This document shows, piece after piece, positions 8,305 to 19,775 of a stretch of 64,000 nt of DNA. The notes under the pieces were generated by a model, which made no database searches, was not told the origin of the DNA, and was given only the letters and a program-made list of their open reading frames with translations. The stretch spans positions 62,001 to 126,000 of the forward strand of contig JAFDYN010000020.1 in the NCBI GenBank assembly GCA_018267385.1. The letters are read 5' to 3'. The stretch is from Bacteroidota bacterium. GTDB lineage: Bacteria > Bacteroidota > Bacteroidia > Chitinophagales > LD1. The first letter of the stretch is position 1. Each line of letters opens with the position of its first letter. Position numbers and translations under genes: made by a program.

Positions 8305-9405
8305 TCAAATATCCTTTCCCATCAAATTGCCGAGTAGTTCGATTTTTGATGTTTCTTCATGGCCATCAATATAATGTATAAGTCCCTGATTGAATCCCAA
8401 AGACTTTTCAATCAACCCGAGAAATAATGCTAAGTTCTCAGATTGGATATCCAATAAATTGAACATCAGTTCTAGAATATCGTCATGAGAACTACTGTTG
8501 ATATATTTAAAGAATTTTCCAGTTAATCCTATAATAACGTCCGACGCTTGAATTAGTTTGTCAGCTTTGGATTCAAAAAAACTGTAGTTGGTAATCTTTT
8601 GCCCTTTGTATAGTAAAGGCATATCGACTAGCAGTTGTTGAATTTCAGTTTCATTATCAAAAAAATGATCAGAGTGCAAAAACAAATAAATGGGGCGAGC
8701 GTATAATTGCATAAATCCCTGTATCAATATATAGTCGTCTTCATCAGTAATAAAAGGAAGGGAATCTTTGTTTGCGGCTTCTCTCAAGAGAGATTCTAAC
8801 ATTTTAATACCACCGCCAATTTTTTCTGTCTTGTAAGGTTCAAGTATTTCGACCAATTCATTCACAAAATCCTTAACTGACGCTTTCGGAACATTCGGAT
8901 ATGTATATTTTACGAACAAAGGAACAATGGCATCAATGCTCATTTTGCAAGCGATATACAGAGCATTTTTCAATGAAGGCGCATAGTGCATTATGCTGCT
9001 TGGGATCGCTGAGTCCACAATATCGACAATTGAGTAGTACAAGAGATTGAGCGAAGATATATGTAGATAAAGCGGCTTGGCATGAACATTTGTTAAGAAT
9101 GTTCTGAGTTCCTGGGATTTCAAGCAATCAGTAAACTCACCAAAAGCGATATGCTTAAGCTTTACTTCCACAACATTAGGCTGTAAAGGAATCCCATCAA
9201 AAATGTCTTCGACATTGGGCTTTTGACCACTAAACGCAAAACCACCTAAAACGAAGTTGGCCGTGTAATCAACATTGAAATTCCCTTTCTTGAGGTGTAG
9301 CTTTTTAATGTTATTGGTTTCGTCGTAATAAAGTGTTAGAGGCGCATTTATATCGACATGCGGGTGCATGATCTGCATTGCTTCTCTCATTTCAGATGTT
9401 TCCAT
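8305..9405 (-). CDS. DUF3800-like protein (predicted RNase H-fold)
   Basis: The frame opens with TTG at 9444; the ATG at 9405 (METSEMREAMQ) is preferred, giving 366 residues. LTLYYDETNNI near the N-terminus and ADKLIQASDVIIGLTGKF near the C-terminus match the two acidic signatures of DUF3800 proteins (iDESG near the start, IQlADlvag near the end). These proteins are thought to adopt an RNase H-like nuclease fold and often occur in mobile or defence regions. The match is by eye. It is transcribed away from the small-protein/caspase pair on its right. The biological role is unknown. Confidence 0.55.
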   Translation of the reverse strand: METSEMREAMQIMHPHVDINAPLTLYYDETNNIKKLHLKKGNFNVDYTANFVLGGFAFSGQKPNVEDIFDGIPLQPNVVEVKLKHIAFGEFTDCLKSQELRTFLTNVHAKPLYLHISSLNLLYYSIVDIVDSAIPSSIMHYAPSLKNALYIACKMSIDAIVPLFVKYTYPNVPKASVKDFVNELVEILEPYKTEKIGGGIKMLESLLREAANKDSLPFITDEDDYILIQGFMQLYARPIYLFLHSDHFFDNETEIQQLLVDMPLLYKGQKITNYSFFESKADKLIQASDVIIGLTGKFFKYINSSSHDDILELMFNLLDIQSENLALFLGLIEKSLGFNQGLIHYIDGHEETSKIELLGNLMGKDI

Positions 9406-9640
9406 GATATCCTTTGTTGTAACTGCTTTTACCCTAGAAGCCAATGATTCCTATTAAATATGGCGTGGGGGGACTCAGTATAATGAATAATTATTCTTTC
9501 TCTTTGCGCACATAATCAAGCCATTATATTCCTGTGGAAATATTTTACCATGTGCATGCAACTGTGCATAAAAAGGTTTAGTCTACAAGCTTTAGGCAAA
9601 AATAGATTGCCTCTATAAACGTTAACTAAATAAATATAAA

Positions 9641-9910: not shown

Positions 9911-10717
9911 ATGACAGCGAAACATTTGAAAAGAAAGGCGATCATATTAGGCAGTCCATATCCTCAGGATTCAAAATACCATTTACGTGGCGTTGCACAG
10001 GATGTTGTAAATTTTAGAAAATTCCTGATGTCTTCAGCCGGTGGTGCTTGGAAGCGCGGTGAAATTCATCATGGCACTCACATCAAGAGTTCCGTCGTGC
10101 ATACGATACAGCGTCTGTGCAAAGATGTGGACATAGCCGTGATTTTTTATAGTGGGCACGGCTTTATGCGTGGTGGAGAGAATTATATCAATATCAATCC
10201 ACGAGAGAGCCTAAATGTTGAACATCTTTATACGAGGGCGAAACGTCAAACTACATTAGTTGATGCTTGCCGCACGGACTATTCTTATGAGCACTTAGAA
10301 GGTATCGGTGACATTGGAATGTATTTCGACAATACGAGACCTGATTTGGGTAGAGCATTATTCGATTACTATTTGGAACGTAGCCCCGAGGAAAACTTTA
10401 CGATGTTTTCGTCGTCTGAGAATCAACCGTCCCAGGACACAGAGAATGGCGGCTTGTTTACTTACTCTTTGCTCAATAAGGTAAGCGATTGGACTTTAAG
10501 GACTGATAAACTTTGTTTACCGGCGCATGTGGCGTTTACGCACGTAGAACGAGAACTTAATCAAAGATTCGTGGAGCAAGAGCCGACGTATCATTACAGT
10601 GGTGATATAATCCCAACGATTCCGTTTGGTGTATCTCCGAGATCGTATTTGCGCAATTACCTTGGTCAGAATGATAGAGTTAAATCGCGTGGAATGACGA
10701 TAAGAACTTTGTCTTAA
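9911..10717 (+). CDS. Caspase-like cysteine protease (peptidase C14 family)
   Basis: A 268-residue protein. AIILGSPYPQDSKYHLRGVAQD begins the p20-like fold. The catalytic His lies in IAVIFYSGHGF and the catalytic Cys in TTLVDACRTD, the typical spacing and context of bacterial caspase/metacaspase domains. A later block FTMFSSSENQPS...GGLFTYSLL matches the substrate-loop region. There is no signal peptide, so it is cytoplasmic. Bacterial caspase-like proteases often serve abortive-infection or regulated proteolysis roles. Here the only partner is the small basic protein 18 bp upstream. There is no sensor domain in the same chain, so the trigger must come from elsewhere. Confidence 0.85.
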   Translation: MTAKHLKRKAIILGSPYPQDSKYHLRGVAQDVVNFRKFLMSSAGGAWKRGEIHHGTHIKSSVVHTIQRLCKDVDIAVIFYSGHGFMRGGENYININPRESLNVEHLYTRAKRQTTLVDACRTDYSYEHLEGIGDIGMYFDNTRPDLGRALFDYYLERSPEENFTMFSSSENQPSQDTENGGLFTYSLLNKVSDWTLRTDKLCLPAHVAFTHVERELNQRFVEQEPTYHYSGDIIPTIPFGVSPRSYLRNYLGQNDRVKSRGMTIRTLS

Positions 10718-13602: not shown

Positions 13603-14280
13603 ATGTCACATGTTGAACGATTTGGCGCACTTGTCCCAAGTTCCAATACGACGGTTGAGGATGAATTGGCACAATACCTTAGACTCCCATCGTCTGAATC
13701 GGTAAGATTTCATATTGGCCGCTTAGATTACAACACACGAATAAGCGTTTCGTATCAGGATTATTGTCAAGAAATATGTGCAAAGGTTGTGCCTGCCATG
13801 ACAACGCTTGAAAAGGTAAAGGATATACGCAGTATCGGTTTCTTTTGTACCACCTGTTCCTTATACTTGAGTGATCCCCTGTTTTCATCAATTGATAATC
13901 CAATATCTGCCATTGCAAAAACTTGTTTTGCAAGTGGAATTGTTTCGCCATTGGTTATTACTCCTTATACGGATGAAATTACAAGCAGAATACTCAGTAA
14001 ACTGCCATTCCACTCAATTGTATCATCTGTTAATATAAATAAATTGACAGCCAGTGAACTCGGTGGGATGAATCTTGATACCTTATTGGAGATTACCAAA
14101 AATAATTTTGATCACACTAAGCATGATTCTACAATTATTCTATGTACAAACCTTCCGAGTTTACATCTTGCGAAAGTGATAAGATATTTTACTAGTAAAC
14201 CTTTTATTTCTAGTAATCTTGCAATGATCAGCGCAATGCAGAATATCGCTATTGATCGTATTATTGAACAAATGCCATGA
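13603..14280 (+). CDS. Maleate-isomerase/Asp-Glu-racemase superfamily protein
   Basis: A 225-residue protein. The N-terminal FGALVPSSNTTVEDE is the signature of the maleate cis-trans isomerase/arylmalonate decarboxylase branch. This branch uses a Cys from each of two similar half-domains. The first candidate Cys is in GFFCTTCSLY (about residue 80), the second in IILCTNLPSL (about residue 185). A GRLDYNT motif at about residue 40 also fits. Known relatives isomerise or racemise small dicarboxylates. The stop overlaps the next start by 4 bp (ATGA), so translation is probably coupled to the kinase-fusion gene, suggesting it makes or alters a small precursor for that pathway. Confidence 0.75.
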   Translation: MSHVERFGALVPSSNTTVEDELAQYLRLPSSESVRFHIGRLDYNTRISVSYQDYCQEICAKVVPAMTTLEKVKDIRSIGFFCTTCSLYLSDPLFSSIDNPISAIAKTCFASGIVSPLVITPYTDEITSRILSKLPFHSIVSSVNINKLTASELGGMNLDTLLEITKNNFDHTKHDSTIILCTNLPSLHLAKVIRYFTSKPFISSNLAMISAMQNIAIDRIIEQMP

Positions 14281-15590
14281 CTGTAGCTATGAATATTTCA
14301 GATATACTGTTTCCTAGTCCCGAGGACTTTAAAAAAATTGTTTTGACGATGGCCTCGTCAGACTTAGTGAAAGATCACGTTGCCCGAAATCACGATAATA
14401 ACCGTTGGTGGCCTACGAGTGTTTCAGATTGGCGTGTGAGGATGTTGGTAGCCGGTGTTAGCACTCGCGTATCTTACGCAATGGTGAATACCTATGCCCG
14501 AGTGGTGGAGAAGTTGGATGCTCTTGGTTACGAGCGATTGAAGATTATTGACGATTCCGATTTCAAAGAAATTGTGAAGCCAATTGGCCTTTCTGATTCA
14601 AGGTTACAATTTAAAAAATCGCTCTTTGACTTTATTGAAGAAGTTACTTCCGGAGGTAGAAGCATTGATAGTTATTCATCTTCCGAATTGATTGCTCTTA
14701 TGGAGCAGAAGGTGGATGGTGCGGGCTATAAGGTTGCACAGTGCTGTGTCCTATATGCACGAGGATATTATTGTGGAATTATGCCTGTGGATAGCGGCAT
14801 GAAAGATAACTTGGGGTATTGCCTCGGATTTAATTATCCAAACAAATCTTTAGGTCACGAGGTTCTACGTAGTCAATTTGAACATTTGGTCAAGCAAATT
14901 GATTTTTCGCAGGAGGTAAAGATCTTAGGATATGATAAAACCTGTCAACTTCCGACAAGTAATTATAGTTGGTGGGTGCATTTGGTGTTAATCTATTACA
15001 AACGCTTTTACTGTAATAAGTGTAATCCTGAAACTTGCCTTGTTTATCAAAATAGGGAGTTGAAGATTGGCTCAATGTGCCGTGAGGGTGCTCCTCGAAA
15101 GGGCGGGACTAAGAATGTTATTATAGAAGGAGTTGATGGTGTTGGTAAGTCCACATTGGGTAAGCGATTAAAGGAAATGGGGTTCACCTATAAGCACTTT
15201 GAATACAATCGTGAGGCGACAGATTTATATGCGATATATAAGGACTTTCTTTTAGCAAACAATAATAAAAAAATTGCCTTTGACAGGTCGTTTATCTCTG
15301 AATATGTGTATGGTCATGCGCTTCGGGGTTCTTCAAGGATAAGTAAGGAACAATTACTTGAGTTGATTAGCCTGGGTGGAGATACAAAAGTTATCATTAT
15401 GACTGACACCAAAGAAAATATCCTTAGCAGGGAGATTGAGCCACAGGATATAAAGATGATTACAGAAAATTATGAAGTCCTTAATGACGGCTTTCTTGAT
15501 CTTTATAATGATCTGAAGGAGACCATTGACATTTCTATAGCATCATTTGACGAAGTTAGATACCAATTAGAAAATAACTTCCTGACGTGA
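14277..15590 (+). CDS. Fusion of HhH-GPD-like helical domain and thymidylate-kinase-like P-loop kinase
   Basis: A 437-residue protein. Residues about 1-275 are helical and resemble the HhH-GPD DNA-glycosylase fold: a LVAGVSTRVSYAMVN start, FKEIVKPIGLSD, GAGYKVAQCCVLYARG, then PVDSGMKDNL with an Asp (172) at the place of the catalytic Asp. A Cys-rich loop YCNKCNPETC follows near residues 245-256. Residues about 280-437 hold a P-loop kinase: EGVDGVGKST (Walker A about 285-293) and IAFDRSFISEYVY, as in thymidylate kinases. This helical-plus-kinase combination is the one predicted for phage 5-hydroxymethyldeoxyuridine DNA kinases and related thymine-hypermodification enzymes. It overlaps genes on both sides by 4 bp. 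Confidence 0.7.
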   Translation: MTVAMNISDILFPSPEDFKKIVLTMASSDLVKDHVARNHDNNRWWPTSVSDWRVRMLVAGVSTRVSYAMVNTYARVVEKLDALGYERLKIIDDSDFKEIVKPIGLSDSRLQFKKSLFDFIEEVTSGGRSIDSYSSSELIALMEQKVDGAGYKVAQCCVLYARGYYCGIMPVDSGMKDNLGYCLGFNYPNKSLGHEVLRSQFEHLVKQIDFSQEVKILGYDKTCQLPTSNYSWWVHLVLIYYKRFYCNKCNPETCLVYQNRELKIGSMCREGAPRKGGTKNVIIEGVDGVGKSTLGKRLKEMGFTYKHFEYNREATDLYAIYKDFLLANNNKKIAFDRSFISEYVYGHALRGSSRISKEQLLELISLGGDTKVIIMTDTKENILSREIEPQDIKMITENYEVLNDGFLDLYNDLKETIDISIASFDEVRYQLENNFLT

Positions 15591-16402
15591 ATAAATCTAT
15601 AGCCTTTATTGGTAATGCCTCAATCGATGAAATTACTACTGCCAGAGGAAAGTTTACATCGTATGGTGGAAGTGCCGTCAATTCCAGTTTAGCGGCTAGT
15701 CTTTTGACTGATGAATCTATTTATCTGACAACAGCATTTGGCTACGATTATCCAACTCACAAGTTTGACAGTTTAAAGGGGATTTCACTTGAGTTTTCGC
15801 GTATTGACGAGATGGCATCCAATAGATTTCTTATCAATGAAGTTGATGACACGCTTAGTTTTGTTAATGAAAAATATTTAGACATCATTTTAAACAAACA
15901 GCTTATAGCCGGTCATGTCCATTTGTCTTGCAGAAAAGGGGTAAATCCCATCCAACTGCTTTCAGCTTTGCATTTTGATTCCCTTTCCATTGATGTGATG
16001 AAATTTAGTTTGACAACGATGTGGGAAGACATAGTAACTCTCGCGAAAAAAGCGACTGTTTGTTTTTGTAATCGTGAAGAATATCAAACGCTAATGGAGC
16101 AGCGCGAACAAATGAAATCACTAACCTTCATCGTTACGCACAGGGATGGCGTTGATATTTTTTCCGGCGACTCAGAAATCAACGTTGCCTTGAAATCGGT
16201 TCCTGAAATAGATTTTCAAAGCACAACAGGAGCCGGTGATACATTTTTGGGAGGGTTTTTGGCATCCTACACAAGGTATGGCGATCTGCATAAGGCAGCT
16301 TTGAGTGGACAAGTTGTTGCGAAATATAGCCTTGCAGCTTTTGGAAATTGGCACCTTTACCACATGAAAGACGAGATTTTAAAAGAAATAAATAAGCAGT
16401 AA
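15587..16402 (+). CDS. PfkB-family sugar/nucleoside kinase
   Basis: A 271-residue protein starting with GTG inside a GTGA overlap with the previous stop. PfkB signatures: AFIGNASIDEI at the N-terminus, the sugar-binding YGGSAVNSSLAASL, NREEY in the middle, and the catalytic STTGAGDTFLGGFLASY with its Asp near residue 218. Members phosphorylate hydroxyl groups of sugars, nucleosides or related small molecules. Together with a P-loop kinase on each side, it gives three kinases in a row. The context favours a nucleoside or sugar intermediate rather than central metabolism, but the substrate is not shown. Confidence 0.85.
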   Translation: MNKSIAFIGNASIDEITTARGKFTSYGGSAVNSSLAASLLTDESIYLTTAFGYDYPTHKFDSLKGISLEFSRIDEMASNRFLINEVDDTLSFVNEKYLDIILNKQLIAGHVHLSCRKGVNPIQLLSALHFDSLSIDVMKFSLTTMWEDIVTLAKKATVCFCNREEYQTLMEQREQMKSLTFIVTHRDGVDIFSGDSEINVALKSVPEIDFQSTTGAGDTFLGGFLASYTRYGDLHKAALSGQVVAKYSLAAFGNWHLYHMKDEILKEINKQ

Positions 16403-16403
16403 G

Positions 16404-17219
16404 ATGTTGCCCCATGTAACTTTTATATTGGGAAATTCATGTTCAGGTAAGTCATCTCTTGTGGCTGAAATTCGGAAGTGGGATTCAGATATTATTGTGT
16501 TTGATGACTATTCGGTTCTAAAGGAAATATTTGAACTTGATAACCGTATTAGAACGAGCACACAAAGCGAACTTATTGAAAGGTTGAATGACCTGCGCAT
16601 GAATACAGTTTTTATTACAGATAGGATAGAGGCTATCGTAGATGCATTCATTCAGGGCAGGTTAACGCAAAGCGAATATGCGTTTCAATCACTTAGAAAT
16701 ACGGATGCATCGCATAATATTTTGGATTTGAATGTATGGCATGAAGTCCTAGAAATCCTATTGTCAAAAGCTAGTGATAATGAAGCACACTATATTTTTG
16801 AATTCGCAAGGGGTGACGCTGAAAATTACTTAAAACACAATGAGATAGGACCAGGTGAATCATATACTTATCATTTGTTGCGCCTTATTAAATCTGGTGT
16901 CAATTTATCTTCATGCGGTATTGTATATATTAAGTCTGATCTTGAATCGCGCATAAACCGCAGTATTAGTAGAAAGGCTAAGGGGGGCCATTATCTTTCA
17001 CCTGAAATCATGAAAGCTGTTTACAAATCAGATTCATTTCTGAACCAAATTGAGTATCGCGGTGATGCCGCTTTTTTAGATGTGGAAGACTTGTCTATTC
17101 CTGTATTTGTGGTTGATAATTCCGAAGATATACCTGAGGAATCCATATCAAATAAATTCGATGTCTTAATTCAACCAATTCAGGATTACTTTTCTAAGCA
17201 TTCAGCACTTCGCCCCTAA
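16404..17219 (+). CDS. P-loop NTPase, probable small-molecule kinase
   Basis: A 271-residue protein. Walker A is FILGNSCSGKSSL (residues about 7-19). An acidic strand end IIVFDDYS follows and could serve as the catalytic or Mg-binding segment. A lid-like basic stretch is SRINRSISRKAKGG. The pattern is that of adenylate/nucleotide-kinase-like or zeta-toxin-like kinases, but no specific family is recognised. It starts 1 bp after the PfkB stop, so it is clearly in the same operon. Its last 26 bases overlap the 3' end of the convergent radical SAM gene. It may be a second phosphorylation step. Confidence 0.7.
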   Translation: MLPHVTFILGNSCSGKSSLVAEIRKWDSDIIVFDDYSVLKEIFELDNRIRTSTQSELIERLNDLRMNTVFITDRIEAIVDAFIQGRLTQSEYAFQSLRNTDASHNILDLNVWHEVLEILLSKASDNEAHYIFEFARGDAENYLKHNEIGPGESYTYHLLRLIKSGVNLSSCGIVYIKSDLESRINRSISRKAKGGHYLSPEIMKAVYKSDSFLNQIEYRGDAAFLDVEDLSIPVFVVDNSEDIPEESISNKFDVLIQPIQDYFSKHSALRP

Positions 17220-18735
17220 GCAGCCTATAGCCTAAATTCTCGGTGATTTTAACATCGTACGAATTGTAAGGGATCAATTCTTTACCCTGTACCTCAACCC
17301 GTATAGGACAAGTGCCAAGTGTTCTTAAATAACTGTTTCCACCTTTGACAACGACTTCACGCATATCCCTTATAATGGTCGGCTCGTTTAAATACAGTTT
17401 TTGCTGCATAGGAAGAACATAGCTATCTGTAATGTCCTTGAAGCACTGGTCGTAGTTAGAGTAACTGGTATCATTCTTTTCAAAAGAAACGCCTGTTGGC
17501 CTCGTCATATTTCGGTAGTAAAGCCTTTGAGTTTGCCAACCATTATTGAGAATGGTTTCGAGATGCTTCAAATTTATTTCATGTGTTTTTTCGTTGTGAC
17601 CATTGAGGTTATGAATCAAATTGACACCCGGTAAAAGTTTAGGATTTCCATCCGCTCCTTTTTCCTGACCGTATTTATTAATAATCTCGATTGCCCTAAG
17701 CACCTCCTCAGGAGTGCCAGTAACGCGATTTTGTTTTCTAACCTCTCTATCGAAAGATTCAATGCCAAATGGGGTTATGTTGCCCGATGTGCAGTATTTA
17801 ACTATCAGTTGAGTGATCTCAATCCCTTGCTGACTTAAAACGTTTATCATGTTCACGTTATCAACATGAAGTGTTTCAATATCGGGACATGAAGCGCGTA
17901 TGCCGTAAAGTAAGGCCTCCATCTTTGAAACGTCTTGCTTATGGAAGTGGTAGAAATTGGGTTGACGGCCAAGTCTAAAGTGCCTCACGCCTTGCCGATA
18001 TAAAGTTGCAACTTGCTTTATAATATCCTCAGGCTCCCTATATGTAACCTTTGGAGACCTTACCGATTCAATACAGAAGGTGCATGTTGGTGTGTTACAC
18101 CCTGTTCCCGTTTCGATTTCAGCGATAATAGGATAACGCAGTTGATTGATGATTGGAGCATCGCATTCACTGATTTTTGCCAAAAGGCCGTAATTCGGCT
18201 TTAGTAAATCAGTGACCTTATCAAGGCTTATGTCTGTTGCAGCCGCCTTTTCTAGAACATAGCGATAAGTATTACCATGTTCATACTCTGTTAAAATGGG
18301 TTTCAGCTTAGATTTTTGAAATTCGTCTGATATACCATCCTTGGTGCCCATGACATAGAACAAAATCTTCTTTGCCTGGGTATCTTTTAAATATTCATAT
18401 ACTTCATCACTTTCAGGAGGTACGCTTGAAAAGTACTGGTAATTCACAAAACAGCCCATGATCAGATATATTGTATCGGCAGCTTGAAGAATCTCCTTAG
18501 CGTTTTCGGCGTTACGCGTTCTATTTAAGATGTGTAAATTTGTATTTGAACCGTCGGACTTGAAATTACCGCTTGAATACCTCAAATCTTCAATTGTCAA
18601 ATAAGTATGTGGTATCTTCAAATACTCCAACGCCTGAGACAGATGGATTTGATGGGTACCCATATACGGCCTTACACCATACCCTGAAGGTTCATCCGTA
18701 TAACAATCGACAATAACAGTTTTGTAAGCGTTCAT
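17194..18735 (-). CDS. Radical SAM enzyme resembling COG1031 (archaeal-type)
   Basis: A 513-residue protein. The N-terminal VDCYTDEPSGYGVRPYMGTH matches the opening of the uncharacterised archaeal COG1031 radical SAM family. The iron-sulfur cluster motif is GTGCNTPTCTFC with Cys 213, 218 and 221. That is CX4CX2C rather than the usual CX3CX2C, so the loop has one extra residue. After it comes RLGRQPNFYHF, a typical SAM-barrel segment, and TPFGIESFD. It converges on the kinase operon (26-bp overlap) and diverges from the thymidylate-synthase-like gene with only 15 bp between the two starts. It would do radical chemistry on an unknown substrate, possibly the modified base or a precursor. Confidence 0.75.
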   Translation of the reverse strand: MNAYKTVIVDCYTDEPSGYGVRPYMGTHQIHLSQALEYLKIPHTYLTIEDLRYSSGNFKSDGSNTNLHILNRTRNAENAKEILQAADTIYLIMGCFVNYQYFSSVPPESDEVYEYLKDTQAKKILFYVMGTKDGISDEFQKSKLKPILTEYEHGNTYRYVLEKAAATDISLDKVTDLLKPNYGLLAKISECDAPIINQLRYPIIAEIETGTGCNTPTCTFCIESVRSPKVTYREPEDIIKQVATLYRQGVRHFRLGRQPNFYHFHKQDVSKMEALLYGIRASCPDIETLHVDNVNMINVLSQQGIEITQLIVKYCTSGNITPFGIESFDREVRKQNRVTGTPEEVLRAIEIINKYGQEKGADGNPKLLPGVNLIHNLNGHNEKTHEINLKHLETILNNGWQTQRLYYRNMTRPTGVSFEKNDTSYSNYDQCFKDITDSYVLPMQQKLYLNEPTIIRDMREVVVKGGNSYLRTLGTCPIRVEVQGKELIPYNSYDVKITENLGYRLLRGEVLNA

Positions 18736-18750
18736 ATACCCCCATTTAAT

Positions 18751-19476
18751 ATGATTTATATAAAAACAAACACGTCATCCGGTTCACAAATATTTGACCT
18801 AATTGAACAGCAGAAATCAAAATCCTTAGAAAACCTCCTGGTAGAGATAGAATGTAATTCATTAACGTTTCTGCCGGACAGATATGCTACTATCGCAGAA
18901 GTTTTTTTTAAACAAGTCCAACTTTTAATCGGGGATAGATGTGAAAAGTACCTGAATAGCTATATCAAATCTGTAAATATTGATAGATTTAAACTTAGCC
19001 CATACAGAAATAGCATCTGCCACGATTTAGCAGCTATTGCAGATAAAATGAATTCACGAACAGCGCTTCTTACTTTTCCATGTGAATCGCCTCATTCCGC
19101 AAGCACAAATTTAATTCATTTTTTAAACAACAGTGGCAGGTTAAATATGAACATTTACTCACGTTCAATTTATCTCGATTATTTAGCCAAAGATTTAGCC
19201 ACCTTTTATTTTTTGGGACAGTTGGTTGGCTATTCAGTCAAAATGAAATTTTCGCTTTTGCATTTTTTTATAGGGTCATTTGATAATACCGCAACCAATG
19301 TCTCAAAGTTGGTATCTCTGAATAAGCCGGTTCTCTTTAATGGTACTTTAAAGGACCAAGTAGATAGGGCAGAAGAAGCAATAAATGCTATAATTGAAGA
19401 TAAAGCCTTACAAAATGGGCATGATTATTTTTCTGAAATGGTTTTATTGGTTAGGTCTAAATCCGACCTGATTTAG
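18751..19476 (+). CDS. Thymidylate-synthase-like protein (possible nucleotide hydroxymethylase)
   Basis: A 241-residue protein, shorter than ordinary thymidylate synthase. SRTALLTFPCESPH (Cys 111) matches the catalytic PC segment. GRLNMNIYSRS matches the GKLSCQLYQRS phosphate-binding region (Arg 138). It is followed by the helix LATFYFLGQLVG. By hand alignment Asp 148 falls where thymidylate synthase has the pyrimidine-selecting Asn, the change known from cytosine hydroxymethylases. The usual GD.H.Y end is replaced by IGSFDNT. It is therefore a distant, perhaps respecialised member acting on a pyrimidine nucleotide. It is divergent from the radical SAM gene. The substrate is not proven. Confidence 0.65.
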   Translation: MIYIKTNTSSGSQIFDLIEQQKSKSLENLLVEIECNSLTFLPDRYATIAEVFFKQVQLLIGDRCEKYLNSYIKSVNIDRFKLSPYRNSICHDLAAIADKMNSRTALLTFPCESPHSASTNLIHFLNNSGRLNMNIYSRSIYLDYLAKDLATFYFLGQLVGYSVKMKFSLLHFFIGSFDNTATNVSKLVSLNKPVLFNGTLKDQVDRAEEAINAIIEDKALQNGHDYFSEMVLLVRSKSDLI

Positions 19477-19598: not shown

Positions 19599-19601
19599 GT
19601 G

Positions 19602-19675
19602 TGCACCTGAAGGGAGTCGAACCCCTAACCTGTTGATCCGTAGTCAACTGCTCTATCCAGTTAAGCTACAGGTGC
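19602..19675 (-). tRNA. tRNA-Arg (anticodon ACG)
   Basis: All arms pair by hand: acceptor GCACCTG/CAGGTGC, D-stem GCTT/GAGC, anticodon stem GTTGA/TCAAC with loop CTACGGA (anticodon ACG), T-stem AGGGG/CCCTT with loop TTCGACT, discriminator A. The 3' CCA is not encoded. The gene lies exactly where base composition shifts from AT-rich to more balanced DNA. tRNA genes are common insertion points of mobile elements. Confidence 0.95.
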
Positions 19676-19685
19676 ATTTAAATTT

Positions 19686-19755
19686 CAATATGTCAATTTC
19701 AACCCTCACCCTCTGCTCCGTAGTCAGCTGCTCTATCCAGTTAAGCTACGGGTGC
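19686..19755 (-). pseudogene. Decayed second tRNA-Arg copy
   Basis: Reading the minus strand, GCACCCG, then TAGCTTAACTGGATAGAGCA and CTACGGA keep the 5' acceptor strand, D-arm and anticodon ACG of the neighbouring tRNA. The anticodon 3' strand (GCAGA), T-arm and 3' acceptor strand are lost. It lies 10 bp upstream of the intact tRNA and would be in the same transcript. It is a tandem duplicate or an insertion scar. Confidence 0.85.
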
Positions 19756-19775
19756 ATCCTTTTCTGAAAGGACTG

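Follow-up and report, generated by a model that had tools for sequence, protein, structure and literature searches.

Gene cluster at the right end of a tRNA-Arg island

The window analyzed here, a stretch of 64,000 nt from a Bacteroidota bacterium, carries at 18751-19476 on the forward strand a gene for a 241-residue protein that an earlier note on this DNA had described as thymidylate synthase (TS)-like. The adjacent gene is divergent, with 15 bp between the two start codons, and encodes a 513-residue radical SAM protein (17194-18735, reverse strand), a full-length relative of Streptomyces plasmid proteins at about 31% identity. Further to the left, all on the forward strand, are genes encoding a 271-residue AAA_33-like P-loop kinase (16404-17219), a PfkB-family kinase of the ribokinase/nucleoside-kinase-like type (15587-16402), a fusion protein (14277-15590), and a member of the Asp/Glu-racemase superfamily resembling arylmalonate decarboxylase or EutA (13603-14280). 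The fusion joins an HhH-GPD N-glycosylase-like domain (about residues 1-260, with K152 and D172 kept) to a dTMP-kinase-like P-loop domain (about residues 279-437). The HhH assignment is based on PF00730, which matched 8 of 11 members with a best E value of 5e-6. Recognizable catalytic motifs are retained in the genes neighboring that of the TS-like protein. A prokaryotic viperin was considered for the radical SAM protein and nucleotide kinase, and was rejected when no viperin model matched.

An integrase island of approximately 50 kb ends on the right with this cluster; its attachment site is a tRNA-Arg (acg) gene at 19601-19675 on the reverse strand. A 44-bp segment from the 3' part of this tRNA gene is repeated (95%) at the left end of the island, beside a tyrosine integrase (C11:30982-31025), and to the left of tRNA-Arg the GC content falls to 0.34-0.44, from about 0.49. 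The relatives searched yielded neither the TS-like protein nor the HhH protein. Adjoining the intact tRNA gene is a second, partial tRNA-Arg-like copy (window 19703-19757, 87% over 55 nt), which was probably left behind by integration of the island. The island also carries a match to the PADLOC candidate defense model PDC-S51 (8305-9444, reverse strand, E 1e-117) and a caspase-domain (Peptidase_C14) protein (9911-10717, forward strand).

Counterparts of the cluster were found, by way of the radical SAM protein, on Streptomyces plasmids, where they lie in one operon-like run together with genes for a nucleoside 2-deoxyribosyltransferase (NDT) and a MazG-like protein, and where the HhH-GPD and dTMP-kinase-like parts are two separate genes. 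Scanning with the HhH protein located the unit at 18 further loci in actinobacteria, of which some are truncated where a contig ends, for about 20 loci altogether. The seven-gene actinobacterial unit (loci L004, L006, and L009-L026) encodes radical SAM, racemase-like, HhH-GPD, PfkB, NDT, P-loop kinase, and MazG-like proteins, and the functions it has in common with the window are radical SAM, racemase-like, HhH, PfkB, and dTMP-kinase-like, five in all. The NDT and MazG-like genes are absent from the window cluster, and the NDT family had no match anywhere in the source genome. The 271-residue P-loop kinase has no counterpart in the actinobacterial unit, and no relative of the TS-like protein was detectable in the actinobacterial loci that carry it. 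The literature searched held no description of this gene set. By gene functions, the thmABC cluster for 4'-thiothymidine in Photorhabdus (PMC12691670) is alike in its compact, stand-alone combination of radical SAM protein, nucleoside kinase, and nucleotide triphosphatase, but it has three genes only and lacks a TS-like or HhH protein. We also considered a phage DNA-hypermodification pathway, which is not supported, the HhH protein being absent from the phages, the viral contigs, and the 395 other genomes of the order that were searched.

Relationship to the thymidylate synthase superfamily

The ORF is real, as the earlier note had assumed. Its 241 codons are open, with a probability of about 1e-8 for a stop-free run of this length at 34% GC, and a six-frame check found no frameshifted continuation in other frames. 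The TS relationship proposed in the same note is above chance. A family HMM of 17 diverse TS-like proteins, built without the window protein, gave it 19.4 bits compared to 6.9 bits for the best of 5000 shuffles, and the pairwise comparison with the TS of Geobacillus plasmid pGeo12a gave a z of 13.8 over shuffles. By hhalign, P was 6e-4, at a probability of only 29%. However, a profile of 88 proteins, made by adding 71 viral relatives to the 17, gave 8.5 bits, inside the shuffle range; this larger profile is more stringent and too specific to lift the window protein above shuffles. There was no match to PF00303 or to any other model of Pfam, NCBIfam, or PHROG, and querying PADLOC and the PDB sequences with just this protein returned nothing useful. 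The sole match among 72,556 plasmid records was the pGeo12a TS at E = 1. The small profile and the pairwise tests place the protein in the TS superfamily (the PF00303 fold), with a score that does not reach the Pfam cut-off. The relationship is remote because the score in the 88-protein profile falls among those of the shuffles, and on sequence comparison the window protein is a very divergent relative of the superfamily.

Structure prediction is in keeping with this assignment. An AlphaFold2 model on an alignment with 33 viral relatives had a pLDDT of 63 overall and about 80-90 at residues 119-180. Its top PDB matches were TS structures (Foldseek E 2e-8; VIA Z up to 15.9, 3.1 Å over 189 residues), and these values are supporting evidence only, as a model made from a TS-like alignment is biased towards the TS fold. 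Single-sequence AlphaFold2 failed (pLDDT 36), with a strand/helix order that nonetheless resembles the TS core.

In a FastTree analysis of 30 proteins, the window protein grouped with the TS1-type proteins of Geobacillus pGeo12a (L008 5680-6669) and Streptococcus salivarius pSaLI10 (L032 7884-8873) with a support of 0.76, a placement that is tentative because the branch is so long (3.3 substitutions per site). The Geobacillus TS1 is also the nearest protein by score. Both TS1-type proteins resemble the window protein in combining an Asp selector with an eroded active site; they differ in that the Cys is kept and an intact TS2 lies one gene away, whereas the window gene has no such neighbor. 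On the two plasmids (L008 5680-8503 and L032 6413-8873), the intact Asp-selector TS2 and its eroded paralogue TS1 occur with QueA-like, PqqD-like, kinase, and phosphotransferase genes, which suggests that the pairs are paired TS subunits. The best solved relatives of the Geobacillus protein are the MilA CMP hydroxymethylases. Searches of 395 genomes from the phylum, of 60 relatives, and of viral contigs, phages, and plasmids yielded no orthologue of the window protein, and none sharing its active-site changes was seen among the genomes, viral contigs, phages, and plasmids searched; the only genome match (G040, E 7e-4) contains internal stops.

The source genome also encodes its own ThyA (L028), which has the fold in common with the window protein and differs from it in that the selector is Asn and the active site complete. 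Another TS, encoded at L044 4708-5340, has Asp as its selector together with the principal catalytic residues, and its surroundings (L044 3092-6813; G000 C5:~197091-200812) lie near conjugation genes. This protein of 210 residues has kept the Cys, the Asp selector, and HIY, and its gene apparently forms an operon with SDR and NUDIX genes and a gene for an uncharacterized 309-residue protein, adjoined by a MazG-like gene and the conjugation genes. The locus is likely an intact cytosine-nucleotide hydroxymethylase cluster.

Active-site residues of the TS-like protein

For TS-like enzymes, the residue at the selector position, Asn or Asp, serves to predict the substrate, and Asp stands for cytosine. 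The selector column in the window protein is occupied by D148 in the BLAST, HMMER, hhalign, and MAFFT alignments, confirming an observation that the earlier note had made by hand, and the same column is Asp in 84 of the 88 relatives. The phosphate-binding Arg166 and Ser167 correspond to R138 and S139, and the phosphate site had thus been assigned correctly.

The nucleophile had not. The earlier note took C111 as the catalytic Cys (residue 146 in E. coli TS, 148 in the T4 enzyme, 155 in MilA), a residue that is invariant in the relatives (88/88) and that precedes the phosphate Arg by 20 residues in 86 of them. In the window protein, it is S118 that lies 20 residues from R138 and that falls in the Cys column in BLAST, HMMER, and MAFFT alignments, the last made with 33 viral relatives; the best-scoring relative gives a gap-free alignment, with S118 at the nucleophile position. 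C111 is probably not the catalytic Cys, as its spacing to R138 is 27. For it to serve as nucleophile, a 7-residue insertion directly after the Cys would be needed, which the spacing in 86/88 rules out and which none of the relatives has there, and the pairwise alignments that choose C111 are low-scoring and gapped. C111 sits in the hairpin preceding S118 and might reach the pocket from there.

Other active-site positions have changed as well. The selector lies 30 residues ahead of the His in 70 of the 88 relatives, and we assign the His position to D178 because D148-D178 has this spacing. The ribose-contacting His207 and Tyr209 are hence replaced by D178 and T180, in agreement with the loss of the usual H.Y end reported before, and the nearby G175-S176 dipeptide aligns. 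In the column of the catalytic Glu58/60, the MAFFT alignment has K54, with E50 four residues out of register. The folate-binding Asp169 of the RSxD motif is missing, the window protein having RSIY and a one-residue deletion ahead of the selector, and the YGxR loop has no recognizable counterpart. For the partner-subunit residues Arg126'/Arg127', R103 is present and T104 occupies the second position, which is Gln in 34/88 relatives. The combination of Asp, Ser, and Arg at the D148, S139, and R103 positions is found in 74 of the 88 and constitutes a deoxyribonucleotide/cytosine pattern. Since D148, R103, and S139 match it, the pocket looks dCMP-like, not dUMP-like. Of the cytosine-type enzyme suggested earlier, the specificity is therefore supported by these three residues, but the enzyme is not, as the nucleophile Cys, the His, and the Tyr are missing.

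MilA (CMP 5-hydroxymethylase of mildiomycin biosynthesis; PDB 5b6d, 5jnh) and BcmA are likewise TS-superfamily proteins with an Asp selector, encoded in nucleotide-metabolism gene sets. MilA differs from the window protein in having Cys155, Glu68, His216, Tyr218, and the ribo-type Lys133'/Ala176 (PMC5175136), in contrast to S118, D178, T180, and the deoxy-type R103/S139. Its selector is Asp186, and changing Lys133' and Ala176 reversed its preference from CMP to dCMP (PMC5175136). T4 gp42, a dCMP hydroxymethylase, shares with the window protein the Asp selector, the Ser after the phosphate Arg, and an Arg at the partner-subunit phosphate site, but is catalytically active, with Cys, His, and Tyr present. 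S118 has its laboratory equivalent in the C148S mutant of gp42, in which activity was abolished with no appreciable change in dCMP affinity (PMC6400193).

Predicted function and alternative readings

Given the loss of Cys, His, and Tyr and the inactivity of T4 C148S, the window protein is not to be read as a maker of 5-hydroxymethylcytosine by the known route. Judged by its residues, it is most likely a binding-competent, nucleophile-less TS and not a normal dCMP hydroxymethylase. The account that explains most, to which we give about an even chance, is that of a predicted dCMP-like binder on a TS fold without the classical covalent chemistry. Such a protein would have kept a pocket for pyrimidine 2'-deoxyribonucleotides in which the selector is of the cytosine type (R103, R138, S139, D148) and lost the covalent machinery (S118 for Cys, D178 for His, T180 for Tyr, with no recognizable YGxR loop or folate-binding Asp), and would bind a dCMP-like nucleotide or a pathway intermediate non-covalently. 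It may present substrates to the neighboring radical SAM, HhH-GPD/kinase, PfkB, and P-loop kinase proteins or regulate them, or it may be a "prozyme"-like partner of an intact TS; in the trypanosome AdoMet decarboxylase, a dead paralogue activates its partner by heterodimerizing (PMC6221367). The gene unit as a whole would make or process a modified deoxynucleotide. That the nucleophile-less fold was recruited as a new component of an undescribed pathway of this kind, either for other catalysis or as an obligate nucleotide-presenting partner of the radical SAM/HhH-GPD proteins, is a tentative and rather doubtful extension. No description of a TS pseudoenzyme was found in the literature searched.

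It is unlikely that the gene is what decay has left of an Asp-selector TS, without any function today. Many invariant residues are lost, the branch is long, the related genomes searched hold no orthologue, and the third-position GC (0.318) is close to that of the second position (0.314), a coding pattern weaker than in most neighboring genes. Decay would, however, have spared an open frame of 241 codons without a frameshift, left the adjoining genes apparently intact, and preserved R103, R138, S139, D148, and G175-S176 all together.

We consider it quite improbable that the protein is an active dCMP or CMP hydroxymethylase using C111 as nucleophile after a 7-residue insertion. The selector is indeed Asp, some low-scoring alignments do select C111, and a Pro precedes it, as is often the case with the true Cys (FPC compared to PPC/IPC); but the distance to R138 is wrong in comparison with aligned relatives, which lack the insertion, the best-scoring relative aligns gap-free onto S118, and the losses extend to the His, the Tyr, the folate-binding Asp, and the YGxR loop. 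An activity of another kind on the TS fold, for example with S118/D178 carrying out the step of the actinobacterial NDT, appears very unlikely. The TS-like gene and NDT replace each other in otherwise matching sets and the genome has no NDT-family gene, but this replacement is a single case, in which the sets differ further by a second P-loop kinase and by the lack of the MazG-like gene, and we know of no mechanistic precedent for an NDT step on this fold. The least probable reading is that the protein is no TS relative, with a chance likeness or a shared strand-strand-strand-helix order, as the lack of model matches, the shuffle-range score in the large profile, and the low hhalign probability might suggest, since independent methods give one register and reproduce the spacings of 20 and 30 exactly.

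The binding-competent, nucleophile-less TS favored here leads to a conserved nucleotide gene unit, for which no description was found, that is common to actinobacteria and one Bacteroidota-type island. In this protein the selector says cytosine and the chemistry is gone; the selector rule alone is therefore no basis for calling a hydroxymethylase, and the Cys should be checked.
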